DNA of 64,000 nt from Hyphomicrobiales bacterium (GTDB taxonomy: Bacteria; Pseudomonadota; Alphaproteobacteria; Rhizobiales; Xanthobacteraceae). This document shows, piece by piece, positions 29,852-61,400 of the stretch (position 1 is the first letter of the stretch; each line of letters starts with the position of its first letter). The DNA is taken from NCBI GenBank assembly GCA_017305665.1, contig JAFKKH010000010.1, positions 124,001 through 188,000 on the forward strand, in the 5' to 3' direction. A program made the position numbers and the translations under genes. The notes under the pieces are model-generated. The model did not search any database, was not told the origin of the DNA, and was given only the letters and a program-made list of their open reading frames with translations.

Positions 29852-31214
29852 CTCGCTCGCCACCCGCCTCTTCTTATCCGCGACCGCGTGGGTGGTTGCC
29901 GTTCTGCTCATCACCGGCGTGGCGCTGTCCTCGGTCTATCGCTCGGCGTCCGAACGTGCTTTCGACCGCCGGCTCAATCTCTATCTCCGTACCCTGATCG
30001 CCGAAGTCGCGACACCGGACGAGCCGCCCGATCATCAGTTCCAGTCGCTCGGCGAGCCGCTGTTCGATCTGCCGCTGTCGGGCTGGTACTGGGAGGTCGT
30101 CCGCACCGATCCCGACAAGGAAGACGTACGCGCTTCGCGCTCGCTGTGGGACAAGCGGCTGCCGAAACTGGAAGATCGGGGCATCGAGCTGTCGTCGTCG
30201 GGAGTCCGCGTCGGCTATGTCGATGGTCCCGAAGGGCAAACGCTGCGCATGGCGGAACGGCCGGTCGATCTCGGCGCCGATGGCAAGTATCGTGTCGCGG
30301 TCGCCGGTGATGCCACCGAGATTTTCGACGAAACCCGCACCTTCGACTACTATCTCGGCGGCACCTTCGCGGCGCTGACGATCGGACTGCTGCTGACTAC
30401 GGTCTTCCAGGTGCGGTTCGGTCTCGCGCCTCTGAAGCGTATTTCCGATGCCATCGCCGACATCCGCTCCGGGCGCGCCGAGCAGCTGGAGGGCGAGTTT
30501 CCGGTCGAGATCGCGCCGCTCGCCCGCGAGACCAATGCGCTGATCGACGCCAACCGCGAGATCGTCGAGCGCGCTCGTACCCACGTCGGCAATCTCGCCC
30601 ATGCCATCAAGACGCCGCTCTCGGTCATCGTCAACGAAGCGACCGCTCACGAGCGCGATGTCTTCACCGCGAAAATCCTCGAACAGGCCGACGTGATGCG
30701 CAATCAAGTCGCGCATCATCTGGAACGTGCGCGCCTTGCCGCGCGTCTCACCGTTATCGCCACCGTGGTCGATGTGGCGCCGGTGATCGAGGCGCTGCGC
30801 CGGACCATGGAAAAAATTCACCGCGATCGGGGCATCGCCATCGACGTCGAGGCCAGCGCGGACGTCAAATTTCGCGGCGAGCGGCAGGATCTCGAGGAGA
30901 TGGCCGGCAATCTCGTCGATAACGCCTGTAAGTGGGCGCGGTCGCGGGTGTTCATCGAAGCGTCGGTGCACCCGGCTTCCGGCGTCGAGCCGGCAATGCT
31001 GCATATCATGGTCGACGACGACGGCCGTGGTCTTTCCGATGACGAGCGGATGCAGGTTTCGCAGCGCGGCCAGCGGCTCGACGAGACCAAGCCCGGCTCG
31101 GGGTTGGGCCTGTCCATCGTCACCGACCTCGCTGCGCTCTACGGCGGGAAGCTGATATTGGCGTCGGCGCCGATCGGCGGCCTGCGCGCCGAACTCGTGC
31201 TGCCGGCGGCATGA
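29841..31214 (+). CDS. PhoQ-like sensor histidine kinase
   Basis: 457 aa. Two membrane helices (about 10-30 and 170-190) enclose a ~140-residue periplasmic sensor domain. A HAMP-like linker and the phosphoacceptor motif NLAHAIKTPLSVI (His near 254) follow. The ATPase domain has NLVDNACKWA and GSGLGLSIVTDL. HAIKTPL is the variant H-box of PhoQ-type kinases, which sense divalent cations or envelope state. The partner is the regulator just upstream, overlapping by 11 bp. Rhizobial FeuQ is a possible counterpart. Confidence 0.88.
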   Translation: MRGSSLATRLFLSATAWVVAVLLITGVALSSVYRSASERAFDRRLNLYLRTLIAEVATPDEPPDHQFQSLGEPLFDLPLSGWYWEVVRTDPDKEDVRASRSLWDKRLPKLEDRGIELSSSGVRVGYVDGPEGQTLRMAERPVDLGADGKYRVAVAGDATEIFDETRTFDYYLGGTFAALTIGLLLTTVFQVRFGLAPLKRISDAIADIRSGRAEQLEGEFPVEIAPLARETNALIDANREIVERARTHVGNLAHAIKTPLSVIVNEATAHERDVFTAKILEQADVMRNQVAHHLERARLAARLTVIATVVDVAPVIEALRRTMEKIHRDRGIAIDVEASADVKFRGERQDLEEMAGNLVDNACKWARSRVFIEASVHPASGVEPAMLHIMVDDDGRGLSDDERMQVSQRGQRLDETKPGSGLGLSIVTDLAALYGGKLILASAPIGGLRAELVLPAA

Positions 31215-50969: not shown

Positions 50970-51401
50970 TCAAGCGATCATGCGCTCGCGTGTATTCGCA
51001 TTGTCCGCTTCGAACGCCGCGCTGATATCCCTGATGCTGATCACGCCGATCAGGGTGTGGTTGTCGATCACGGGCATGTGCCGGATATGGTGACTGTTCA
51101 TTAGGTGACGGACATGCTCGAGCGTGTCCGTTGATGTGCAGGAGATCAGTTGCTGCACCGAAATCAGGCTAGACACCTTGAGATTGAGGCCGGCCGTTCC
51201 ATGCGCGGCGACAGCGCGAACGACGTCGCGCTCCGTGAACATTCCCACCGCGGTGTTGCCTTCGGTTCGCACCACGTCTTTCACCACCAGCGCGCTGATA
51301 TTGCTGGCGCGGAGCAATTGAGCCGCGATCGCGACGGTTTCATTCATTCGCACCGTGACAATTCGGGTGCCTTTCTTGCGCAGGATGTCTTCGACTTTCA
51401 T
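50970..51401 (-). CDS. Two-CBS-domain protein in the oxalate regulon
   Basis: 143 aa made of two CBS domains and nothing else: the first spans about 10-70 (NISALVVKDVVRTEGNTAVG, then MFTERDVVRAVAAHG), the second about 78-135 (HHIRHMPVIDNHTLIGVISI). CBS pairs bind adenine nucleotides and sense energy charge or S-adenosylmethionine. GAGGAGG precedes the ATG strongly. A TGGTAT-N5-ATACCA operator lies 52 bp upstream, as before the oxalate genes, so it may sense or tune that pathway. Its target protein is not evident. Confidence 0.88.
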   Translation of the reverse strand: MKVEDILRKKGTRIVTVRMNETVAIAAQLLRASNISALVVKDVVRTEGNTAVGMFTERDVVRAVAAHGTAGLNLKVSSLISVQQLISCTSTDTLEHVRHLMNSHHIRHMPVIDNHTLIGVISIRDISAAFEADNANTRERMIA

Positions 51402-51452: not shown

Positions 51453-51469
51453 TGGTATACATTATACCA
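51453..51469. promoter_or_regulatory. Oxalate-regulon operator A (CBS gene)
   Basis: TGGTAT-ACATT-ATACCA, a perfect 6-bp inverted repeat, 52 bp before the CBS gene start. Confidence 0.75.
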
Positions 51470-51542
51470 AATGTCAACGCGCAATTGTCGCGCAAGCGGG
51501 ATTTGGCAAGGCGGGGCGCAGGAGTCGGTCTTCTCCAGACAA

Positions 51543-51571
51543 ACAAAAAGGGCGCACCAGGTGCGCCCTTT
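51543..51571. terminator. Bidirectional terminator after the first OFA transporter
   Basis: The arms GGGCGCAC and GTGCGCCC form a perfect 8-bp stem with a CAG loop, flanked by AAAAA and TTTTT, so it works on both strands. It lies 21 bp after the minus-strand stop at 51592 and isolates the CBS promoter. Confidence 0.9.
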
Positions 51572-51591
51572 TTCGGAAATCAGATTTTCGA

Positions 51592-52887
51592 CTATTCGGC
51601 GGGCTGCCCCACGGCACCCTTGTTCTCGGATGCACTGATCGATAGCCGCATCGGTCGCACTACAAACAGCGCCAGCGCCACCACGATGAAGTTCATGATC
51701 GCGGCAACAATGAACACCGCGTGCCAGCTCCCGGTGTGGGTTTTCAGCACGTTCGCGATCGGCACCAGGAAGGCCGATAGTCCCTTCGCGGTGTAGAGCA
51801 GGGCGGTGTTGGTGGTCGCGTATTTCGGCCCGAACATATCCGTGCAGGTCGAGGGAAACAGGCTGAAGATCTCGCCCCAGGTAAAGAAGATCAGCGCCGC
51901 GCAGATCACGAAGGTCCATGGCGTGGTGCCTGCGGTTCCAAGAAGCCAGAACGCGAGACCGCCGGCCGTGAATGCGATCGCCATGGTGTATTCGCGGCCG
52001 ATTTGATCGGACACCCATCCGAAGAAAGGTCGTGCGCTGCCGTTTGCGAGGTTGTCGATAACGCCGGACACGATCAGGGTTGTTCCACCAAACAGGATGA
52101 CCGATTGGGCGACACCGTAGTCCTTTGCGATCAGCGCGACCTGTGCGGCCACCATCAGACCGCTGGCCGACACCATCACGAACATCAGGTAAAGCAGCCA
52201 GAAGATCGGTGAACGAAGCATTTGGCCGGGCGTGCTGCTGGTCTTCGACTGCAAAACCTTGACGGCCGAAGCGGACGGCACCTCGCGCGGAAGCGGCGGA
52301 CGCAGAAACCAGGCGAGCACGAAAATGATGATGCCCTGGCCAATCGCGAACCAGAAGAATGTCGCCGCATAACCCGATGATGCGATCATCTTCTGAATTG
52401 GAATGACGGTTAGCGCAGCGCCGGCACCAAATCCTGCCGCCGTCAGACCGACAGCGAGGCCGCGCCGATCCGGAAACCATTTGACGGCGTTGCCGACGCA
52501 GGTCGCATAGATTGCACCGGCGCCTACGCCCGACAGCGCTGCACCGAAGTAGAGCATCTCAAGTGACGAAGCGAATGAGTTGATGAGCCAGCCGGCCGAG
52601 CCAAAGATTGCGCCGAAAGCAACGGCAAGCTTCGGGCCGCGCGGTCCGAGCGAGTCCACGATCCATCCCTCAAGGGGCGTCAGCCATGTCTCGAGCGCGA
52701 TAAAGATACTGAAGGCGACCTGGATCTGGGCGATCTCCCAGGAGTGCGCCTTGGCCATGGGGCCGACGAAGTAAGTCCAGCCGTATTGCAAGTTGGCGAT
52801 CGTCGCCATGCAGACGAGGCCGATGATCAACTGCATCCAGCGGAAGCTGTTTGATGGAGCTGATGCGCCTGTTGTTTGCGAATCCAT
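51592..52887 (-). CDS. OFA-family major facilitator (oxalate:formate antiporter-like), copy 1
   Basis: About 431 aa with 12 membrane helices. OxlT/OFA features are the QYGWTYFVGPMAKAHSWE segment after helix 1, and FETW/ETWLTPLEGWIVDSLGPR-type helix 2 loop. OFA members exchange oxalate, formate or other small carboxylates; in Oxalobacter OxlT swaps oxalate for formate. The start at 52887 has GGGGAGGAAAG directly upstream, so the longer frame is rejected. A regulon operator lies 83 bp upstream. It is one of two copies beside frc/oxc, which strongly suggests oxalate uptake or exchange. Confidence 0.85.
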   Translation of the reverse strand: MDSQTTGASAPSNSFRWMQLIIGLVCMATIANLQYGWTYFVGPMAKAHSWEIAQIQVAFSIFIALETWLTPLEGWIVDSLGPRGPKLAVAFGAIFGSAGWLINSFASSLEMLYFGAALSGVGAGAIYATCVGNAVKWFPDRRGLAVGLTAAGFGAGAALTVIPIQKMIASSGYAATFFWFAIGQGIIIFVLAWFLRPPLPREVPSASAVKVLQSKTSSTPGQMLRSPIFWLLYLMFVMVSASGLMVAAQVALIAKDYGVAQSVILFGGTTLIVSGVIDNLANGSARPFFGWVSDQIGREYTMAIAFTAGGLAFWLLGTAGTTPWTFVICAALIFFTWGEIFSLFPSTCTDMFGPKYATTNTALLYTAKGLSAFLVPIANVLKTHTGSWHAVFIVAAIMNFIVVALALFVVRPMRLSISASENKGAVGQPAE

Positions 52888-52969
52888 CTTTCCTCCCCGC
52901 GCTTTGTTGGAATGTGGCGTATCGCCGCAATTATTGTGACTTATCGTCGCAAGCGCTGTGAAGGAAATC

Positions 52970-52986
52970 TGGTATATCATATTCCA
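52970..52986. promoter_or_regulatory. Oxalate-regulon operator B (transporter 1)
   Basis: TGGTAT-ATCAT-ATTCCA, one base off the perfect inverted repeat, 83 bp before the transporter start. Confidence 0.7.
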
Positions 52987-53100
52987 AAATGCAAGCGGGA
53001 ATCCTGCCCGACACGAAGACATTGGTGGTGCATTGCAATATCGATGTGCCGATTAGCGACGCGCCGGAGTCTGACGGTTGCGGAACCGGGTCTGCAATGG

Positions 53101-53133
53101 AAACGCGCCCGTCGCGGTGCGACGAGCGCGTTT
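53101..53133. terminator. Terminator after transporter 2
   Basis: AAACGCGC-C-CGTCGC and GCGACG-A-GCGCGTTT form a long stem with one mismatch around a GGT loop. It lies 18 bp beyond the minus-strand stop at 53152, ending in TTT on that strand. Confidence 0.7.
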
Positions 53134-53151
53134 CCTGAGAGTGCAGTCGGG

Positions 53152-54441
53152 TTAGGCCGTTACTGCCTTGGCTACCACGGTCTTGCGCCATGGCTTGAGC
53201 ACGATGATCGCAAGCAGCGAGGCAAGAATATTTGCCGCTGCGGCGAGCAGGAACACCCCGTCCCAACTCCCGGACGACTGCTGCATGTAATTGCCGAGCG
53301 GGACCAACAGCGATGCCGTGCCCTTCGCGGTGTAGAGCAGGCCGGCATTGGTGGTCGCGAACTTGGCGCCGAACGTATCGGTGCAGGTCGACGGGAACAG
53401 CGAGTAGATCTCGCCCCAAGCGAAGAACACGAAGCCGGACAGGATCACGAACGCGATCGGGTTATGGCCCCACAGGTACAGCATGTAGATGCCGATACCT
53501 TCGAAGCCGAAGGCAAGGAACATGGTGTTCTCGCGCCCGATCTTGTCCGACACCCATCCGAAGAATGGACGGGTCAGGCCGTTGAGCACACGATCGATCG
53601 TGGCCGCGAACGTTACCGTCGTCATCGTCAGCCCCATGAGAGTGACAGGCACCGCTGCGATCTTCCAGTCGGCCGCGATCGGTTTCAGGTTCGCGGTGAC
53701 GAGCAAGCCGCCGGCACCGACCAGGACGAACATCAGATACATCAGCCAGAAGATGGGCTGTCGAATGACTTCGGATGGTCCGTAGTTGCGCCGGCTCTGC
53801 ATGATGGTCGCGTTCTGCAGCGCCTCGGGCACCTGTCCGGCTTTGGGAGCCACCAGGAAGAACGCGAGAATGATGACGACGATTCCCTGGCCCAATCCGA
53901 AATGAAGGAAGGTGCTTTGGAAGCCGTCACTCTTGATCATCGACTGGATAGGCGCGACGGTAAGCGCCGAACCCGCGCCGAAGCCTGCCGCCGTGATTCC
54001 AGCAGCGAGACCGCGTTTGTCGGGAAACCATTTCAGCGCGTTGCCGACACACGTTCCATACACGGCGCCGGCGCCGATGCCGGCGATGATCATCCCGAAA
54101 TAAAAGCCGCCGAGGTTCGCCGCGAACGAATTAATAGCCCAGCCTGCGCCGCAGAGGATGCCACCGATAAGCACAATGAGGCGAGGGCCGTATCGGTCCA
54201 CGAACCAGCCCTCGACCGGCACCAGCCAGGTTTCGAACAACACGAAGAGAGTGAAGGCCCACTGGATCGACGCGCGATCCCATCCGAATTTTTTTTGGAT
54301 GTCGGGGACAAAGAATGTCCAGCCGTATTGATAGTTGGCAATCATGACCATCGCACCAACACCGATGGCCAATTGCGTCCAGCGATAGCCGTCGCTGACG
54401 CGTGCGGCGCTCGGCGCCGCCCCATGAACTGTGTCTGTCAT
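53152..54441 (-). CDS. OFA-family major facilitator (oxalate:formate antiporter-like), copy 2
   Basis: About 429 aa, 12 membrane helices, clearly paralogous to copy 1. Shared blocks include QYGWTFFVPDIQKKFGWD, FAWGEIYSLFPSTCTDTFGA and the GLAAGITAAGFGAGSALTV helix. Copy 2 keeps the charged positions of copy 1, and both could move dicarboxylates. The start at 54441 has GGGAGCGAC 6 nt upstream. Operator C is 54 bp upstream, and a terminator separates it from the 45-aa gene, so it is transcribed alone. One copy might exchange oxalate/formate and the other another carboxylate. Confidence 0.86.
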   Translation of the reverse strand: MTDTVHGAAPSAARVSDGYRWTQLAIGVGAMVMIANYQYGWTFFVPDIQKKFGWDRASIQWAFTLFVLFETWLVPVEGWFVDRYGPRLIVLIGGILCGAGWAINSFAANLGGFYFGMIIAGIGAGAVYGTCVGNALKWFPDKRGLAAGITAAGFGAGSALTVAPIQSMIKSDGFQSTFLHFGLGQGIVVIILAFFLVAPKAGQVPEALQNATIMQSRRNYGPSEVIRQPIFWLMYLMFVLVGAGGLLVTANLKPIAADWKIAAVPVTLMGLTMTTVTFAATIDRVLNGLTRPFFGWVSDKIGRENTMFLAFGFEGIGIYMLYLWGHNPIAFVILSGFVFFAWGEIYSLFPSTCTDTFGAKFATTNAGLLYTAKGTASLLVPLGNYMQQSSGSWDGVFLLAAAANILASLLAIIVLKPWRKTVVAKAVTA

Positions 54442-54494
54442 TGTCGCTCCCAAGCTGCGCTTCTGTTCCGGACGTGAGCGCTAGCCGGCGATTT

Positions 54495-54511
54495 TGGTAT
54501 CCGATATGCCA
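54495..54511. promoter_or_regulatory. Oxalate-regulon operator C (transporter 2)
   Basis: TGGTAT-CCGAT-ATGCCA, matching TGGYAT-N5-ATRCCA exactly, 54 bp before the transporter start. Confidence 0.75.
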
Positions 54512-54601
54512 CCGAGCAAGCATTTCGAGCTTCAAAACGTCATCCGTGCGCAAATGTCGCAGGGGCGGTCCGGAGTTTGCAGAAGTGGTTTGCCAAAAGA
54601 A

Positions 54602-54623
54602 AAAGGCCCCGAAAACCGGGGCC
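54602..54623. terminator. Terminator after the 45-aa gene
   Basis: GGCCCCG pairs with CGGGGCC around AAAAC. On the minus strand it is followed by TTTTTC. It lies 88 bp downstream of the minus-strand stop at 54711 and before operator C. Confidence 0.8.
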
Positions 54624-54710
54624 AAGTCTGGGAGGAAGTCTGAAGATGAGGCATCAAGCCTGAACCCGGCGGAAGCCTTGGCCGCGCGCCGAGTGGCTGA
54701 ACCTACTGAG

Positions 54711-54848
54711 TTACAGGCCGAAATACGGGACGTCGCCGTTGCGCACCGAAGCCTCGTGCCAGGTCAACAGGAGACGGTCGAGGGAGGCCATGAAGCGGGC
54801 GAAGATCGACGGGGCCGGGTTGAAGGCGGTGGAGGTGGTATCGGACAT
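54711..54848 (-). CDS. 45-aa protein in the oxalate regulon
   Basis: The frame starts MSDTTSTAFNPAPSIFARFM and ends VRNGDVPYFGL. The middle is one amphipathic helix (FARFMASLDRLLLTWHEASV), and the end is a short acidic/aromatic tail. The start is supported by AAAGGGAA just upstream. An operator-like site lies 56 bp upstream and a terminator follows, so it has its own transcription unit. No family is recognised. It may be a small regulator or membrane-associated partner of the transporters or enzymes. Confidence 0.6.
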   Translation of the reverse strand: MSDTTSTAFNPAPSIFARFMASLDRLLLTWHEASVRNGDVPYFGL

Positions 54849-54903
54849 TGGGTTCCCTTTCGGAGGGCAGCGATCACGCTGCGTTTTGATCTGGGACCAA
54901 TCT

Positions 54904-54920
54904 ATGTATACCAGATGCCA
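54904..54920. promoter_or_regulatory. Oxalate-regulon operator D (45-aa gene), degenerate
   Basis: ATGTAT-ACCAG-ATGCCA: the right arm is perfect, and the left arm matches 4 of 6. It lies 56 bp before the start. Confidence 0.5.
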
Positions 54921-54992
54921 GAAACAATTCATTTGTTTGCATAGCAGCATAGTTTCTTTTGCATCGCGGCATGATCGGACCTTCCCATAACG

Positions 54993-55020
54993 AAAAAGAC
55001 CGCCGGTCTGACCGGCGGCC
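54993..55020. terminator. Terminator after frc
   Basis: CCGCCGGT pairs with ACCGGCGG around CTG. On the minus strand it is followed by a T-rich run (TCTTTTTCG). It lies 27 bp past the frc stop. Confidence 0.85.
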
Positions 55021-55046
55021 TTTATTCGGAAGCGAAAAAGCTTCGA

Positions 55047-56324
55047 CTATTCTGCGGCTTGCTTACGCGGCGGATCGAGTGCGCCGGAGTCGTGGATATC
55101 CGCGACCTGGTGGTCGCTGAATCCAAGAACCTCGCGCAGGATCTCGTCGGTGTGTTCGCCGAGCAGCGGAGAGCGCTTCACGTCCGCCGGGCTGTCGGAC
55201 AGCTTGATCGGATTGCCGACCGACAGATACTTGCCCCGGGTCGGGTGATCGACCTCGACCACTGTGCCGGTTGCACGCAGCGACTTGTCTTCCGAAAGCT
55301 CCTTCATCGACAGGATCGGACCGCAGGGGATGTCATCCTTGTTGAGGATGTCCATGGCCTCGAACTTGGTCTTGGTCATGGTCCATTGTTCGATGCGTGC
55401 GAAGATTTCGTTGAGACGCGGCAGCCGCGCCACCGGCTTCGCGTAGTCCGGATGCGTCTTCCAGTCGGGCTCGCCGATGACGTCGCAGATCTTCTCCCAC
55501 ACCGGCGCCTGGGTGATGAAATAGATGTAGGCGTTGGGATCGTTCTCCCAGCCCTTGCACTTCAGGATGCGGCCGGGTTGTCCGCCACCGGAATCGTTGC
55601 CGGCGCGCGGTGTGGCTTCGCCGAACGGGATGCCTTCGCCGAACTGGCTGTATTCCTTGAGCGGGCCGTGGGCGAGACGCTGCTGATCGCGCAGCTTGAC
55701 CCGGGCCAGATTGAGCACGCCGTCCTGCATTGCCGCGGTGACGCGCTGGCCCTTGCCTGAGTGCGTGCGGTGATAGAGCGCGGTGACGATACCGAGCGCG
55801 AGATGCAATCCCGTGCCGCTGTCGCCGATCTGCGCGCCGGTGACGAGTGGGGGACCGTCGCGGAAGCCGGTGGTCGAGGCCGCGCCGCCGGTGCACTGGG
55901 CGACGTTTTCGTAAACCTTGCAGTCCTCGTAGGGGCCAGGGCCAAAACCCTTGATCGACGCGACGATCATCTTCGGGTTGATGCTCTGGATCTTCTCCCA
56001 CGGAAAGCCCATGCGATCGAGAACGCCGGGACCGAAATTCTCCACCAGCACGTCGCACTGCTTGATCAGCGCGGTCAGGACTTCCTTGCCCTTCGGGTTC
56101 TTGGTGTCGAGGGTGATCGACCGCTTGTTGTGGTTCAGCATGGTGAAATACAGGCTGTCCACGTTCGGGATATCCTGCAACTGACCGCGGGTGATGTCGC
56201 CGACGCCCGGCCGTTCGATCTTGATCACATCGGCGCCGAACCATGCCAGAAGTTGCGTGCAGGTCGGCCCTGACTGGACATGGGTGAAATCCAGAATGCG
56301 AACGCCCTTCAGCGCCTGTGACAT
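55047..56324 (-). CDS. frc: Formyl-CoA transferase Frc
   Basis: 425 aa, the usual Frc length (about 428). It is a class III CoA-transferase: the N-terminus [20 protein letters not shown] is typical, and catalytic Asp168 lies in [10 protein letters not shown], matching Asp169 of the Oxalobacter enzyme. A glycine loop follows near GGGQPGRI. It moves CoA from formyl-CoA to oxalate, giving oxalyl-CoA plus formate. It is 86 bp downstream of oxc in the same direction, so GntR-oxc-frc is one operon ended by a terminator. Confidence 0.95.
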
Positions 56325-56410
56325 GGTCTTGCTCCTGTATCGTATCTGCTCCTGCCGGAGCAGGAAGGAATAAAGGACGGGCCTGTAATCGTCCCGTCCC
56401 GACGAAAGAT

Positions 56411-58147
56411 CTATTTCTTCTTCAACTGGCTTTGCGGATTGAGATTGCCGATGCGGCCGCTCTCGCTGCCGGCTGCCGGATCGAGCACGGCGTTGATCAG
56501 TGTCGGCTTGCCGCTGTCCATTGCCGCATTGACCGCGCGCTTCAATTCGTCCGGGGACGTCGCATTGACGCCGACGCCGCCGAAAGCCTCCATCATCTTG
56601 TCGTAGCGAGCGCCCCTGACGAAGACGGTGGTGGCCGGATCGGAACCGGCCTTGTTCACGTCGGTGCCGCGATAGATGCCGTCATTGTTGAAGATGACGA
56701 TGCAAACCGGCAGGTTGTAGCGGCAGATGGTTTCGATCTCCATGCCGGAAAAGCCGAAGGCGCTGTCGCCTTCAACGGCGAGCACGGGCTTGCCGGTCTC
56801 GACCGCGGCGGCGATCGAATAACCCATCCCGATGCCCATGATGCCCCAGGTGCCGACATCGATGCGCTTGCGCGGCTGGTAGATATCGACGATGCCGCGC
56901 GCGAGATCGAGGGTGTTGGCACCTTCGTTCACCAGGATGGCGTCCGGCCGTTCCTTGATGATGGTCCGCAGCACGCCGAGCGCGCCGTGATAGTCCATCG
57001 GCGAGTTGTTGTTCATCAGCCGCGGCGCCATCTTGGCGACGTTCTCTTCGCGCTTTTTGGCGACAGCACCCGTCCAGTCGGAGGGCGGCGCGGACCAGTT
57101 GTTGCCCATGCCGGCGAGCAAGGCAGACACGCATGAGCCGATGTCGCCGACCACAGGCGCAACGATCTCGACGTTCGAGTCCATTTCCTTGGGCTCGATG
57201 TCGATCTGGATGAATTTCTTCGGCGCGCTGCCCCAGGTCTTGCCCTTGCCGTGCGAGAGCAGCCAATTCAGCCGCGCGCCGATCAGCATCACGACATCGG
57301 AGTCTTTCAGCACCGTCGAGCGCGCGGCGCCTGCGCACTGCGGATGGGTGTCGGGAAGGAGACCCTTCGCCATGCTCATCGGCAGGAACGGAATGCCGCT
57401 TTTCTCGACCAGTTGGCGGATGGCATCATCCGCCTGCGCGTAGGCCGCGCCCTTGCCGAGAATGATCAACGGCTTCTTAGCGCTCTTGAGAACGTCGAGT
57501 GCGCGGCGGACTGAATCGGGCGCTGGAAGCTGGGCGGGAGCCGCATCGATGACCTTCACCAGCGACTTGCGACCGGCTTCGGCATCCATCACCTGGCCGA
57601 ACAGTTTTGCCGGTAGATCGAGATAAACGCCGCCGGGACGCCCCGAGACCGCGGCGCGGATCGCGCGGGCGAGGCCAATGCCGATATCCTGCGCATGCAG
57701 CACGCGGAACGCCGCCTTGCACAGCGGCTTGGCGATCGCGAGCTGATCCATTTCCTCATAGTCGCCCTGCTGGAGGTCGACGATCTCGCGCTCGGACGAT
57801 CCCGAGATCAGGATCATCGGAAAGCAGTTGGTCGTGGCGTGGGCAAGCGCGGTCAGGCCGTTGAGGAAGCCCGGAGCCGACACGGTAAGGCAGATGCCCG
57901 GCTTCTTGGTGAGGAAGCCCGCGATCGACGCCGCGTAGCCGGCGTTCTGCTCATGACGAAACGACAGCACGCGAATGCCCGCGGCCTGCGCCATGCGGCC
58001 GAAGTCGGTGATCGGAATACCGGGCACGCCGTAGATCGTGTTGAGGCCGTTAAGCTTGAGCGCGTCGATGACGAGGTTGAAACCGTCGGTCAGTTCGCGC
58101 TCGGCTTCAACGGCATTTGCAGTCATGCTCTGTACGGTTGCGGACAT
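56411..58147 (-). CDS. oxc: Oxalyl-CoA decarboxylase Oxc
   Basis: 578 aa thiamine-diphosphate enzyme. Catalytic Glu66 lies in [11 protein letters not shown], the middle domain follows, and the TPP motif runs from [12 protein letters not shown] (about 460) to NNDG (about 488). DYEEMDQ near 130 is also typical of Oxc. It decarboxylates oxalyl-CoA to formyl-CoA and CO2 in the cytoplasm; the formyl-CoA re-enters the cycle through Frc. The start at 58147 has GGGAG upstream, with the Met at residue 8 as an alternative. It lies 61 bp downstream of the GntR gene. Confidence 0.96.
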
Positions 58148-58208
58148 TCCGCTAGTCTCCCTGATCTCGTGACGGACGACTTCGTCGTCTTCTTGTTATC
58201 GTCAGCGG

Positions 58209-58940
58209 TTATGTGAACAATTCTTGGCCATGGGCCTCGACATAGGCCGCCAGTCCAAGTGTGTGGTCGCGCGCGCGCTTTTCGGCGAGTTCTGTGTTGC
58301 GTTCCTCGAGTGCCTCGATGATCGCCATGTGTTCGGGCAGCGAGACCGCGGTGCGGTCGGTGCGTCCGATGGTCAACTGACGGTAGCCGCGCACGTGCAG
58401 CAAGATGTCATTGGTCATGTCGACCAGCGTCGGCGACTCACTCAGCGAGATCAACGCCTGATGGAAGGCAATGTTCGCCTTCGAGTATTCCTCGACGTGA
58501 TCCTGGGGCAGGCGATCCTTGTTGAAGTCCTTGAAGAAGTCGCGCAGCGCCGAAATGTCCTTTTTTCGCGCGGTCGTCGTGATCAGCCGGGCGGCCATGC
58601 TTTCGAGCGCGGCCCAGGCGCGGATCATGTCGACGATCTCGTTTTTGGTTCGGCGCACGACGACGATGCCGCGGCGCGGCACTGTTTTCACAAGGCCGTC
58701 CTGCTCGAGCATCGCGATCGCTTCGCGGATTGGAGTGCGGCTGACACCAAGACGTTCCGACAGTGCGCGCTCATCGAGCATCACGGGCTCGGGCGTCGTG
58801 TAGATATCCATCTTCAAAATGGCTTCCTTCAAGGCGTCGTACGCCTTGTTCTTGAAGCTCATTTCCGGTGCGATCCGGACGATGGCGATATCTGCCTCGG
58901 CCATTGCGGGAGACGCCTTGGTTGATTTCATATCGGACAT
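58209..58940 (-). CDS. GntR-family regulator (FCD/FadR subfamily) of oxalate genes
   Basis: 243 aa. The winged helix (ERALSERLGVSRTPIREAIA, about 57-76) is followed by the wing GLVKTVPRRGIVVVR. An all-helical FCD domain (about 110-230) binds the effector, with NIAFHQALI and nearby His/Asp residues that hold metal in this subfamily. The start at 58940 has AGGAG 8 nt upstream. Two perfect TGGCAT-N5-ATGCCA sites lie upstream, within the divergent region, so it probably autoregulates and controls the oxalate genes. The effector could be oxalate, oxalyl-CoA or a related acid. Confidence 0.88.
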   Translation of the reverse strand: MSDMKSTKASPAMAEADIAIVRIAPEMSFKNKAYDALKEAILKMDIYTTPEPVMLDERALSERLGVSRTPIREAIAMLEQDGLVKTVPRRGIVVVRRTKNEIVDMIRAWAALESMAARLITTTARKKDISALRDFFKDFNKDRLPQDHVEEYSKANIAFHQALISLSESPTLVDMTNDILLHVRGYRQLTIGRTDRTAVSLPEHMAIIEALEERNTELAEKRARDHTLGLAAYVEAHGQELFT

Positions 58941-58995
58941 GACAAAGCTCCTAGGGAAGGAACTTTGTAATACCAGATTAGCGTAGGATATTTTT

Positions 58996-59012
58996 TGGCA
59001 TACCAAATGCCA
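58996..59012. promoter_or_regulatory. Oxalate-regulon operator F (proximal to the GntR gene)
   Basis: TGGCAT-ACCAA-ATGCCA, a perfect 6-bp inverted repeat, 56 bp before the GntR start. Confidence 0.8.
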
Positions 59013-59076
59013 GGATGTCAAGATATCCGTATTTTCCAGATGCCGACGTCAATGGCAGTCTTGACAACATCCATTC

Positions 59077-59093
59077 TGGCATACCAAATGCCA
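59077..59093. promoter_or_regulatory. Oxalate-regulon operator G (facing the ligase)
   Basis: The same 17-bp core as operator F, TGGCAT-ACCAA-ATGCCA, exactly 81 bp away. It is 178 bp before the ligase start, so the ligase has a leader of up to ~150 nt. Confidence 0.8.
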
Positions 59094-59270: not shown

Positions 59271-61400
59271 ATGTCTCAATCCAAAGATGCAGTTCGCAAG
59301 ATTCTCGATGCGGTCAAGGCGGACAAGCGCACGAGTCTGACAGCACCCGAAGGCAAGCTGGTCTGCGACGCCTACGGCATTCCGGTGCCCGGTGAGGGCG
59401 TCGCGAAGTCGGCCGGCGAGGCGGCGAAACTCGCTTCCGGCATGGGCTTTCCGGTGGTGATGAAAATCGTCTCGCCGGACATCCTGCACAAGACCGAGGC
59501 CGGCGGTGTTATTGTGGGCGTCAAGACTGCGGCGGATGCCGAAAAGGCCTACGACACCATTCTGGCGAACGCCAAAAAATACAAGGCAGACGCCAAGATT
59601 GAGGGCGTGCAGGTTCAGCAGATGCTGGCCGGGGGAACCGAGGTCATCGTCGGCTCGATCACCGATGGCTCGTTCGGGAAACTCGTGGCGTTCGGTCTCG
59701 GCGGTGTGCTGGTCGAAGTGCTGAAGGACGTCACGTTCCGTTTGGCGCCGGCGACCAAGCAGGACGCGCTGTCGATGCTCGACGGCATCCAGGCCAAGGA
59801 AATGCTGAAGGGCGTGCGTGGCGGCGATCCTGTCAACCGTGAGGCGCTGGCCGACGTGATCGTGAAGGTCTCGCAGCTCGTCACCGACTTCCAGGAAATC
59901 GTCGAGCTCGATCTCAATCCCGTCTTCGCCACCAAGAAGGATGCGGTGGCCGCCGACGTGCGTATCGTCGTCGACTTCAACTACAAGCCACGGCCGGCGC
60001 CGCGCCCGACCGCTGAAATCGTGGCTGCGATGAATCGCATCATGATGCCGAAATCGGTCGCCGTCGTCGGTGCGTCCTCCGAAGAGGGCAAGATCGGCAA
60101 CTCCGTGATGAAGAACCTCATCAACGGCGGCTACAAGGGTGACATCTATCCGATCCACCCGAAGGCCGACGAGATCATGGGCCGCAAGGCCTACAAGAGC
60201 GTCAAGGACGTGCCGGGCGTGATCGATGTCGCGGTGTTCGCGATTCCAGCGAAGTTCGTTGCCGGCGCGCTGGCCGAATGCGGTGAGAAGAAAATTCCGG
60301 GTGCCGTTCTGATTCCGTCGGGCTTTGCCGAGGCCGGTGCGCCGGAACTGCAGGCGGAAATTGTCGAGGTCGGCAAGAAATACGACATCCGCCTGATGGG
60401 GCCGAATATCTACGGCTTCTACTACACGCCATCGAATCTCTGTGCGACATTCTGTACCGCGTACGACGTGAAGGGCTCGGCCGCGCTGTCGTCGCAGTCC
60501 GGCGGTATCGGCATGGCGATCATCGGATTCTCGCGCTCGGCCAAGATGGGCGTGTCGGCGATTGTTGGCCTCGGCAATAAGTCCGACCTCGACGAGGACG
60601 ATCTGCTGGCGTTCTTCGAGCAGGATCCGAATACGAGCGTCGTCGCGATGCATTGCGAAGATTTGAAGGATGGTCGCGCCTTCGCCACCGCCGCCAAGCG
60701 CGTCGCGGAGAAGAAGCCTGTGATCGTGCTGAAAGCGGGCCGCACATCCGCTGGTGCGAAGGCTGCCGCCTCACACACCGGTGCGCTTGCCGGCAACGAC
60801 AAGATCTATGAGGACGTCCTGAAGCAGTCAGGCGTCATTCGTGCGCGCTCGCTGCGGCAGTTGCTCGATTTCGCGCGTGGCGTGCCCGTGCTGCCAACAC
60901 CGAAGGGCGAGAACGTCCTCATCATTACCGGCGCCGGTGGCTCGGGTGTGCTGCTGTCGGACTCAGTTGTCGACAACGGGTTGTCGCTGATGGCAATGCC
61001 GAAGGATCTCGACGCGGCGTTCCGGAAATTCATTCCGCCGTTCGGCGCTGCGGGTAATCCTGTCGATATCACTGGCGGTGAGCCGCCGATCACCTACGTC
61101 AATACGGTCAAGCTCGGCCTCACGGACGATCGCATTCATTCGCTGATCCTCGGCTATTGGCACACCATCGTCACGCCGCCGATGGTGTTTGCGAAGAACA
61201 TGGTCGAGGTGAAGAACGAAATGAAAGCCAAGGGTATCGAGAAGCCGATCGTGGCGTCGCTTGCCGGCGACATCGAGGTGGAAGAGGCCGCCGAATATCT
61301 CTACCAGAACGGCATCCCGGCCTACGCCTACTCCACCGAAATCCCGGTTGAGGTTCTGGCCGCCAAATACAAGTGGGCGCGGGGCGCGGGTCTGCTCTGA
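59271..61400 (+). CDS. NDP-forming acyl-CoA synthetase (acetate-CoA ligase family)
   Basis: 709 aa fusing both subunit types. An ATP-grasp (beta-like) domain (about 10-235, with VVMKIVSPDILHKTEAGGV) comes first, then a CoA-binding Rossmann part (about 255-385; SVAVVGASSEEGKIGNSV) and a ligase part. The phosphohistidine motif SHTGALAG lies near 502. The beta-first order is the reverse of the common archaeal fusion. It makes an acyl-CoA from an acid, CoA and ATP (giving ADP + Pi). Divergent from the GntR gene with shared operators, it may prime the Frc/Oxc cycle with oxalyl- or formyl-CoA; this is inference. The start has AGGAGG 7 nt upstream. Confidence 0.9.
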   Translation: MSQSKDAVRKILDAVKADKRTSLTAPEGKLVCDAYGIPVPGEGVAKSAGEAAKLASGMGFPVVMKIVSPDILHKTEAGGVIVGVKTAADAEKAYDTILANAKKYKADAKIEGVQVQQMLAGGTEVIVGSITDGSFGKLVAFGLGGVLVEVLKDVTFRLAPATKQDALSMLDGIQAKEMLKGVRGGDPVNREALADVIVKVSQLVTDFQEIVELDLNPVFATKKDAVAADVRIVVDFNYKPRPAPRPTAEIVAAMNRIMMPKSVAVVGASSEEGKIGNSVMKNLINGGYKGDIYPIHPKADEIMGRKAYKSVKDVPGVIDVAVFAIPAKFVAGALAECGEKKIPGAVLIPSGFAEAGAPELQAEIVEVGKKYDIRLMGPNIYGFYYTPSNLCATFCTAYDVKGSAALSSQSGGIGMAIIGFSRSAKMGVSAIVGLGNKSDLDEDDLLAFFEQDPNTSVVAMHCEDLKDGRAFATAAKRVAEKKPVIVLKAGRTSAGAKAAASHTGALAGNDKIYEDVLKQSGVIRARSLRQLLDFARGVPVLPTPKGENVLIITGAGGSGVLLSDSVVDNGLSLMAMPKDLDAAFRKFIPPFGAAGNPVDITGGEPPITYVNTVKLGLTDDRIHSLILGYWHTIVTPPMVFAKNMVEVKNEMKAKGIEKPIVASLAGDIEVEEAAEYLYQNGIPAYAYSTEIPVEVLAAKYKWARGAGLL

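Follow-up and report, generated by a model that had tools for sequence, protein, structure and literature searches.

The oxalate block and its repeated sites

We analyzed a 64,000-nucleotide (nt) stretch of DNA, hereafter the window, from a Hyphomicrobiales bacterium of the family Xanthobacteraceae (assembly GCA_017305665.1, contig JAFKKH010000010.1, positions 124,001 to 188,000). It carries a block of genes for oxalate use, and a 17–base pair (bp) inverted repeat, TGGYAT-N5-ATRCCA (sought as TGGYATNNNNNATRCCA), lies upstream of several of them. On comparative grounds, it is very probable that the FCD-type GntR protein encoded within the block is a local regulator of oxalate use, an autoregulated repressor acting on its regulon through this repeat. 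The gene identities given in an initial annotation, which was made from the sequence alone, withstood profile searches: oxc, frc and the two OFA antiporters pass their NCBIfam cut-offs, and the regulator has both a GntR and an FCD domain. The genes of the block are as follows (aa, amino acids; CoA, coenzyme A).

50970..51401, minus strand: two-CBS-domain protein (Pfam CBS, scored on a version one residue shorter)
51592..52887, minus strand: oxalate/formate antiporter OFA1 (TIGR04259, 523 bits, cut-off 335; a longer open reading frame from 53022 is also present)
53152..54441, minus strand: oxalate/formate antiporter OFA2 (TIGR04259, 644 bits, cut-off 335)
54711..54848, minus strand: 45-aa protein (homologues in 48 of 123 large loci, several loci sharing one genome)
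55047..56324, minus strand: formyl-CoA transferase, frc (TIGR03253, 744 bits, cut-off 504)
56411..58147, minus strand: oxalyl-CoA decarboxylase, oxc (TIGR03254, 1033 bits, cut-off 739)
58209..58940, minus strand: FCD-type GntR regulator, the proposed DNA binding protein (243 aa; Pfam GntR and FCD; predicted fold near Atu1419/VanR and PmiR)
59271..61400, plus strand: adenosine diphosphate–forming acyl-CoA ligase, divergent from gntR (Pfam ligase domains)

No NCBIfam equivalog scores above its cut-off for the ligase. The 45-aa protein has no Pfam or NCBIfam match at an expectation value (E) of 0.001; its homologues are nearly always 45 aa long, with a C-terminus like NGDLPRFGL, and it may be a small protein, not described before, that takes part in oxalate use.

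All six sites listed in the initial annotation were found in place, and, as it had said, five of them have at most one mismatch to the motif. We list them below as candidate operators. The named loci mentioned here and later are the best 80 of 590, from Bradyrhizobium, Tardiphaga, Afipia and related bins; genes with a partial N-terminus or less than 150 nt of upstream sequence were left out of their counts.

51453..51469: CBS-gene promoter, TGGTATACATTATACCA, 0 mismatches; TTGACA just before it on the gene strand; kept at CBS genes in relatives
52970..52986: OFA1 promoter, TGGTATATCATATTCCA, 1 mismatch; a one-mismatch OFA1 site in five of five named loci
54495..54511: OFA2 promoter, TGGTATCCGATATGCCA, 0 mismatches; class conserved in relatives
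54904..54920: 45-aa gene promoter, gene strand TGGCATCTGGTATACAT, 2 mismatches; same form in relatives
58996..59012: gntR promoter, proximal, 0 mismatches; TTGACA begins 9 nt before it on the gntR strand
59077..59093: distal, between gntR and the divergent ligase gene, 0 mismatches

The 58996 and 59077 sites do share one sequence across all 17 bp, as had been noted, and lie 81 bp apart. Site centers fall about 60 to 91 bp upstream of the start codons of the CBS (measured from a start codon set 3 nt too far in), OFA1, OFA2, 45-aa and gntR genes; the sixth site, 59077, is separated from gntR by 145 bp and from the ligase gene by 186 bp. An operator is also common to the CBS genes of relatives. 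The site at 54904 had been called degenerate. It does carry 2 mismatches, but it is not a decayed copy, as the same form is conserved before the 45-aa gene in relatives: its first 15 positions, TGGYATCTGGTATAC, recur in 16 of 16 site rows (window included) and depart only at the end, and TGGYATNTGGTATAC stands before the gene in all 25 named loci that have it. Read by eye, the end of this site overlaps the −10 box (TAAATT or similar).

The window holds 10 matches to the motif with up to two mismatches. None of 100 shuffled windows reached this number (mean of 4.0, standard deviation of 1.9, largest 9). Six of the 10 are the sites above; the others, at 30437, 43803, 44379 and 62384, have two mismatches each. 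Across the 5.03-Mb genome from which the window comes (hereafter, the source genome; 47 contigs), there are five exact matches, four of them inside the oxalate block. With one mismatch allowed, 32 places match, compared with 11 for the reversed pattern.

Conservation of the site at gntR

We searched 149 genomes of the family (source genome included) with the GntR protein; those without a match at E 1e-40 are called GntR-negative. The search returned 36 further close copies, at 79 to 93% identity, with the next match only at 57%. A site with at most one mismatch lies upstream of gntR in all 37 close copies, the window included (35 exact and 2 with one mismatch). Where the divergent ligase gene is present, there are two sites (25/25); where it is absent, there is one site in 11 of 12 loci and two in the other. 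The number of sites at gntR thus follows the number of promoters. The named loci, some of whose genomes are shared with the 37-locus set, all have an exact site at gntR (80/80), and their gntR-ligase site pair is spaced 79 to 83 bp in 78 of 80. Within one mismatch, neither frc (80 genes) nor oxc (78 genes) has a site of its own in these loci, as expected if both are transcribed with gntR.

More distant GntR genes (46 to 58% identity) lie beside oxc in 40 of 44 cases. Upstream of them, a site within one mismatch of the strict motif was found in 21 of 44, compared with 2% of 2000 control windows. A relaxed form, TGGHAT-N5-ATDCCA, chosen after these sites had been seen, raises this to 24 of 44, compared with 3% of 2000 control windows. 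Drifted forms such as TGGAATATTGTATACCA are frequent among them.

Operator anatomy and promoter placement

A TTG-type −35 box begins 7 to 9 nt before the operator in 36 of 37 gntR-proximal, 19 of 19 OFA2, 15 of 16 45-aa and 6 of 7 CBS site rows. At most promoters, the operator follows the −35 box by 1 to 3 bp and so fills the spacer between the −35 and −10 boxes. These counts leave out three overlapping one-mismatch sites (L063, L064 and L065) and one distant CBS site, and the 37 gntR-proximal rows are sites rather than loci: L078 enters twice, and L082, which is included in the 37-locus count above, is absent, its start having been extrapolated too far.

Among 79 distinct sites, the left half TGG-AT and A12, T13 and C15 of the right half are invariant; this invariance of the outer bases is partly by construction, because the sites entered the set through their resemblance to the motif. 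The central five bases, written as N5 in the initial annotation, are not a free spacer and proved largely conserved within each class. Positions 8 to 11 carry 1.0 to 1.4 bits when all classes are pooled and as many as 2 bits inside single classes. In the gntR, ligase, 45-aa and CBS operators, though not in those of the OFA genes, the center completes a GT-N2-AC core of the type known from FadR/FCD operators (PMC4494728). GYATRC occupies operator positions 10 to 15, on either strand, in 36 of 37 gntR-proximal, 25 of 26 distal, 16 of 16 45-aa and 7 of 7 CBS rows, and the CBS sites retain it as GTATRC (7/7). Furthermore, the gntR (36/37), ligase (25/26) and 45-aa (16/16) sites show a third half-site, in the arrangement TGGYAT-N-TGGYAT-RC, which contains a 10-bp FCD-type palindrome.

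Motif and regulator across genomes

Presence of the motif follows presence of the regulator. In 13 GntR-positive relatives, picked among the more similar genomes, we counted 77 exact motifs (reversed control, 3), and in 16 GntR-negative genomes of the family we counted 4 (reversed control, 1). Two GntR-negative genomes encode 40 and 36 FCD genes alongside 0 and 1 matches to the motif, which is therefore not explained by FCD regulators as a class.

For the whole-genome scan that the initial annotation had proposed, we built a profile (R2) from 56 sites in the clusters of relatives, with none of the source genome's site strings and no sites from the two outlying genes described in the next section. 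At E up to 3, with the best 150 of 679 candidates scored, R2 returned seven places in the source genome: the six sites and one upstream of sucC. R2 gave 5 to 11 rows in each of five GntR-positive relatives, some rows being both strands of one place. Among four GntR-negative genomes (a subset of the 16), three gave no match and one gave a single weak match, at E 2.25. An earlier profile (R1) was discarded as evidence and replaced by R2; it had held four of the source genome's site strings and three sucC sites. Other one-mismatch sites in the source genome, such as those before a TRAP-transporter protein and a peptidase-like protein, were returned by neither profile search and were dropped.

At the thresholds used, all six genus-mates of the source organism that were searched (G019, G061, G083, G102, G119 and G135) lack a close GntR and oxc. 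The oxalate block may have been gained in the source genome or lost in these genus-mates.

Sites upstream of sucC and a formate dehydrogenase-type gene

The initial annotation had confined the sites to promoters of the oxalate block. The seventh place returned by R2, on another contig (C3:108070; E 0.15; TGGTATACGGTATTCCA), does not fit this: its center lies 68 bp upstream of sucC, which encodes the beta subunit of succinyl-CoA synthetase and, read by eye, adjoins a malate dehydrogenase–like gene. The regulon is thus not confined to the block and, on this sequence evidence, appears to extend to central metabolism. Six relatives, found through the motif search, have an exact site 63 to 67 bp upstream of a sucC. 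Six further genomes have a sucC in or near the oxalate cluster with a site, which has one mismatch in four and two mismatches in two. This cluster-associated sucC is a second copy in all five of these genomes that were searched for others (all but G059). In two genomes whose GntR is 57 to 58% identical, an operator-free sucC directly follows the ligase gene of the cluster.

We found sucC in all 30 genomes checked, 15 GntR-positive and 15 GntR-negative. In the GntR-negative genomes, no site within two mismatches occurs in the 250 bp upstream of sucC (0/15). Aligned with six genus-mates, the region upstream of sucC in the source genome matches only in the bases nearest the start codon and so does not show whether this operator was gained or lost.

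A second gene outside the block is related to NuoE and NuoF, and we tentatively take it to belong to a nicotinamide adenine dinucleotide (NAD)–formate dehydrogenase. An exact site precedes this formate dehydrogenase–type gene in 9 of 11 GntR-positive genomes; seven of the nine were found by the motif, and of four found by protein, two are exact. The single GntR-negative gene of this type that was found has no site within four mismatches. By eye, the NuoE/NuoF-related gene is followed by a formate dehydrogenase catalytic subunit at the three loci examined.

We lean slightly toward a reading in which the repressor controls an enzyme of the tricarboxylic acid cycle. Succinyl-CoA synthetase would be coupled to the cluster in one of three ways: through a sucC outside the cluster with an operator (in the source genome and in Bradyrhizobium-type and Tardiphaga-type genomes), through a sucC in or near the cluster with an operator, or through a sucC placed directly after the ligase gene. 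NAD-formate dehydrogenase would join in several relatives. The purpose would be to provide succinyl-CoA for oxalate activation and to burn formate, and the operator would comprise up to three half-sites, the outer one no less strict than the FCD core. For formyl-CoA transferases, or for Pseudomonas oxalaticus, succinyl-CoA can serve as the CoA donor. Two other transferases, YfdE and UctC, gave no product from succinyl-CoA and oxalate (PMC3720670).

Proposed regulation and alternatives

The sites as observed, together with how well they are conserved and how they co-occur with gntR, strongly support the block's FCD-type GntR as the protein that would bind them. The proposal of the initial annotation that GntR controls the units of the block is likewise supported by a site at gntR in 37 of 37 close copies, the near-absence of the motif without GntR, and a profile that returns the six sites and one more. 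We infer the following mechanism. GntR (58209 to 58940) would bind the inverted repeat TGGYAT-N5-ATRCCA and, once bound, would block RNA polymerase at the gntR, OFA, 45-aa and CBS promoters; repression is suggested by the operator starting just after the −35 box. The regulon would comprise gntR-oxc-frc, the divergent CoA ligase, both antiporters, the 45-aa gene and the CBS gene, plus sucC in the source genome. A signal from oxalate use (oxalate, a CoA thioester or glyoxylate) would release the repressor, and the inclusion of sucC would supply succinyl-CoA as the CoA donor.

Several observations weigh against this account. The 100 genomes with an oxc match include none of the 16 GntR-negative ones, in which the cluster sites could therefore not occur; the three GntR-negative genus-mates scanned for FCD genes have none at all. 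The sucC comparison escapes the missing-cluster weakness, because sucC exists in all 15 GntR-negative genomes. The best-matching sucC is without an operator in 15 of 15 GntR-positive genomes, seven of which have a second sucC. This set omitted the six relatives whose sucC site the motif search had shown; with one set chosen through the motif and the other omitting motif-found relatives, neither is a fair sample. The formate dehydrogenase–type gene of the source genome has only a two-mismatch site, as does that of one other genome. In profile R2, 11 of the 56 sequences share the 17-bp core with a site of the source genome, and its search there scored the best 150 of 679 first-look candidates; with the best 150 of several hundred candidates scored per genome, weak sites may be missed. 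Among the diverged gntR regions, 20 of 44 have no site within one mismatch even of the relaxed motif. The OFA operators mostly lack the GT-N2-AC core (present in 3 of 19 OFA2 and 0 of 2 OFA1). A fixed −35 box precedes the distal gntR-ligase site on the gntR strand in only 6 of 26 rows.

The block's GntR is not the only FCD protein available, as the initial annotation had supposed: there are 11 FCD genes in the source genome, and the usual FCD palindrome is narrower than the 17-bp form. Both points would suit another regulator, an FCD GntR or a member of some other family, binding the sites, with the block's GntR merely one more target. We consider this distinctly improbable, as the motif tracks the block-type GntR across genomes, genomes with 40 and 36 other FCD genes show 0 and 1 matches, and gntR genes without a divergent ligase still have a site at gntR (12/12). 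That the sites arose by chance, or are a shared promoter element rather than an operator, is extremely improbable: a TTG-type −35 box does stand just before most of them, but their density in the window was unmatched in 100 shuffles, the motif is nearly absent from GntR-negative genomes, and conservation across genera is specific to each class.

If GntR is the binding protein, then its mode of action can still be read in more than one way. The two gntR-ligase sites could form one cooperative or looped complex, for which their conserved spacing (79 to 83 bp in 78 of 80 named loci) speaks. However, 81 bp is a short distance for a DNA loop, and ligase-free loci keep one site (11/12), which fits each site serving a promoter of its own. 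A joint complex is rather unlikely, even with the precedent of tetrameric Atu1419, which loops two palindromes 190 bp apart (PMC7797058). GntR might instead act as an activator, or as both activator and repressor, and the fixed distance between operator and −35 box does not by itself settle the sign of control. This is unlikely given that the operator sits in the −35/−10 spacer at the gntR, OFA, 45-aa and CBS promoters, the usual place for repressors, and that the sites from which Atu1419 represses lie between −35 and −10 or over −10 (PMC7797058).

The GntR protein and known systems

The regulator has a winged-helix domain (PF00392, 50.8 bits, cut-off 27) and an FCD effector domain (PF07729, 78.7 bits, cut-off 24.3). 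Against phnR_burk (TIGR03338), it scores 99 bits, below the curated cut-off of 271.5. The VanR-type FCD subgroup is defined by six C-terminal helices, and structure prediction gives the protein six (residues 99-123, 126-136, 149-166, 170-190, 194-212 and 216-242), in keeping with this subgroup. Residues N156, H160, H182 and H204, candidates for metal-binding residues of the effector domain, are invariant across 10 sequences. In predicted fold, the protein comes closest among solved structures to PmiR, Atu1419 and a GntR protein from Brucella. By sequence, the solved structure that matches best is PmiR of Pseudomonas aeruginosa (7xp0, E 2e-26), whose pathway is methylcitrate rather than oxalate.

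Systems in which an FCD GntR governs the catabolic cluster that encodes it are already known. Atu1419, a VanR-type FCD GntR of Agrobacterium fabrum, has the same domain plan and resembles the predicted fold (Foldseek E ~2e-9 to 2e-8, 24 to 27% identity and TM 0.5 to 0.6). It also binds between −35 and −10 or over −10, its own promoter region included (PMC7797058). However, it serves a hydroxycinnamate pathway and binds a 10-bp palindrome, ATGTATACAT, whereas in the present operators the outer half-site is as conserved as the core. FadR-subfamily regulons likewise have TKGT/ACMA boxes with a gap of 2 to 3 nt, double sites in divergent regions and extra half-sites 7 to 12 nt from the site center (PMC4494728). 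In those regulons, the extra half-site is the weaker of the boxes, whereas in the present operators it is the stricter. No word starting with "oxal" occurs in the main text of that paper.

Bradyrhizobium diazoefficiens USDA 110 has the same enzymes, encoded by bll3156 (frc) and bll3157 (oxc), and its genus has the close GntR. Its Frc and Oxc are more abundant on arabinose than on mannitol, and blr2316, "NADH-ubiquinone oxidoreductase chain F," possibly the operator-bearing formate dehydrogenase–type gene, was detected only on arabinose (PMC5996035); the word GntR is absent from the main text of this source. Among the literature matches listed (titles and abstract openings, with subscription papers mostly outside), none described an oxalate cluster as part of a GntR regulon.

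The more unusual feature is that sucC and, in relatives, the formate dehydrogenase–type gene and a PanE2-like reductase are repeatedly coupled to one cluster. If our reading is right, it provides a regulator, an operator and a set of genes for oxalate use in Bradyrhizobium, Tardiphaga, Afipia and related bacteria, among them plant-associated ones of the soil, and makes the conserved 45-aa protein a candidate component of oxalate use. The sucC and formate dehydrogenase sites would then predict a coupling of oxalate breakdown to central metabolism.

Other genes near clusters in relatives

In many relatives (loci L048, L068, L071, L075, L078, L084, L123 and others), a PanE2-like 2-dehydropantoate-reductase homologue follows the CBS gene or, where the locus has gntR-frc but no intact oxc, follows frc. 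No homologue was found in the source genome at E 1e-20, so we left it out of the system in the window. PanE2 of M. extorquens is cited in PMC8411744 and mentioned in PMC3720670. In several Tardiphaga and Bradyrhizobium loci, an exact site stands roughly 300 bp ahead of a gene for a protein of about 337 aa with, by eye, a signal-like start; this site lies in or near the cluster, for example, at 13739 in L056, 5089 in L058 and 12469 in L164.

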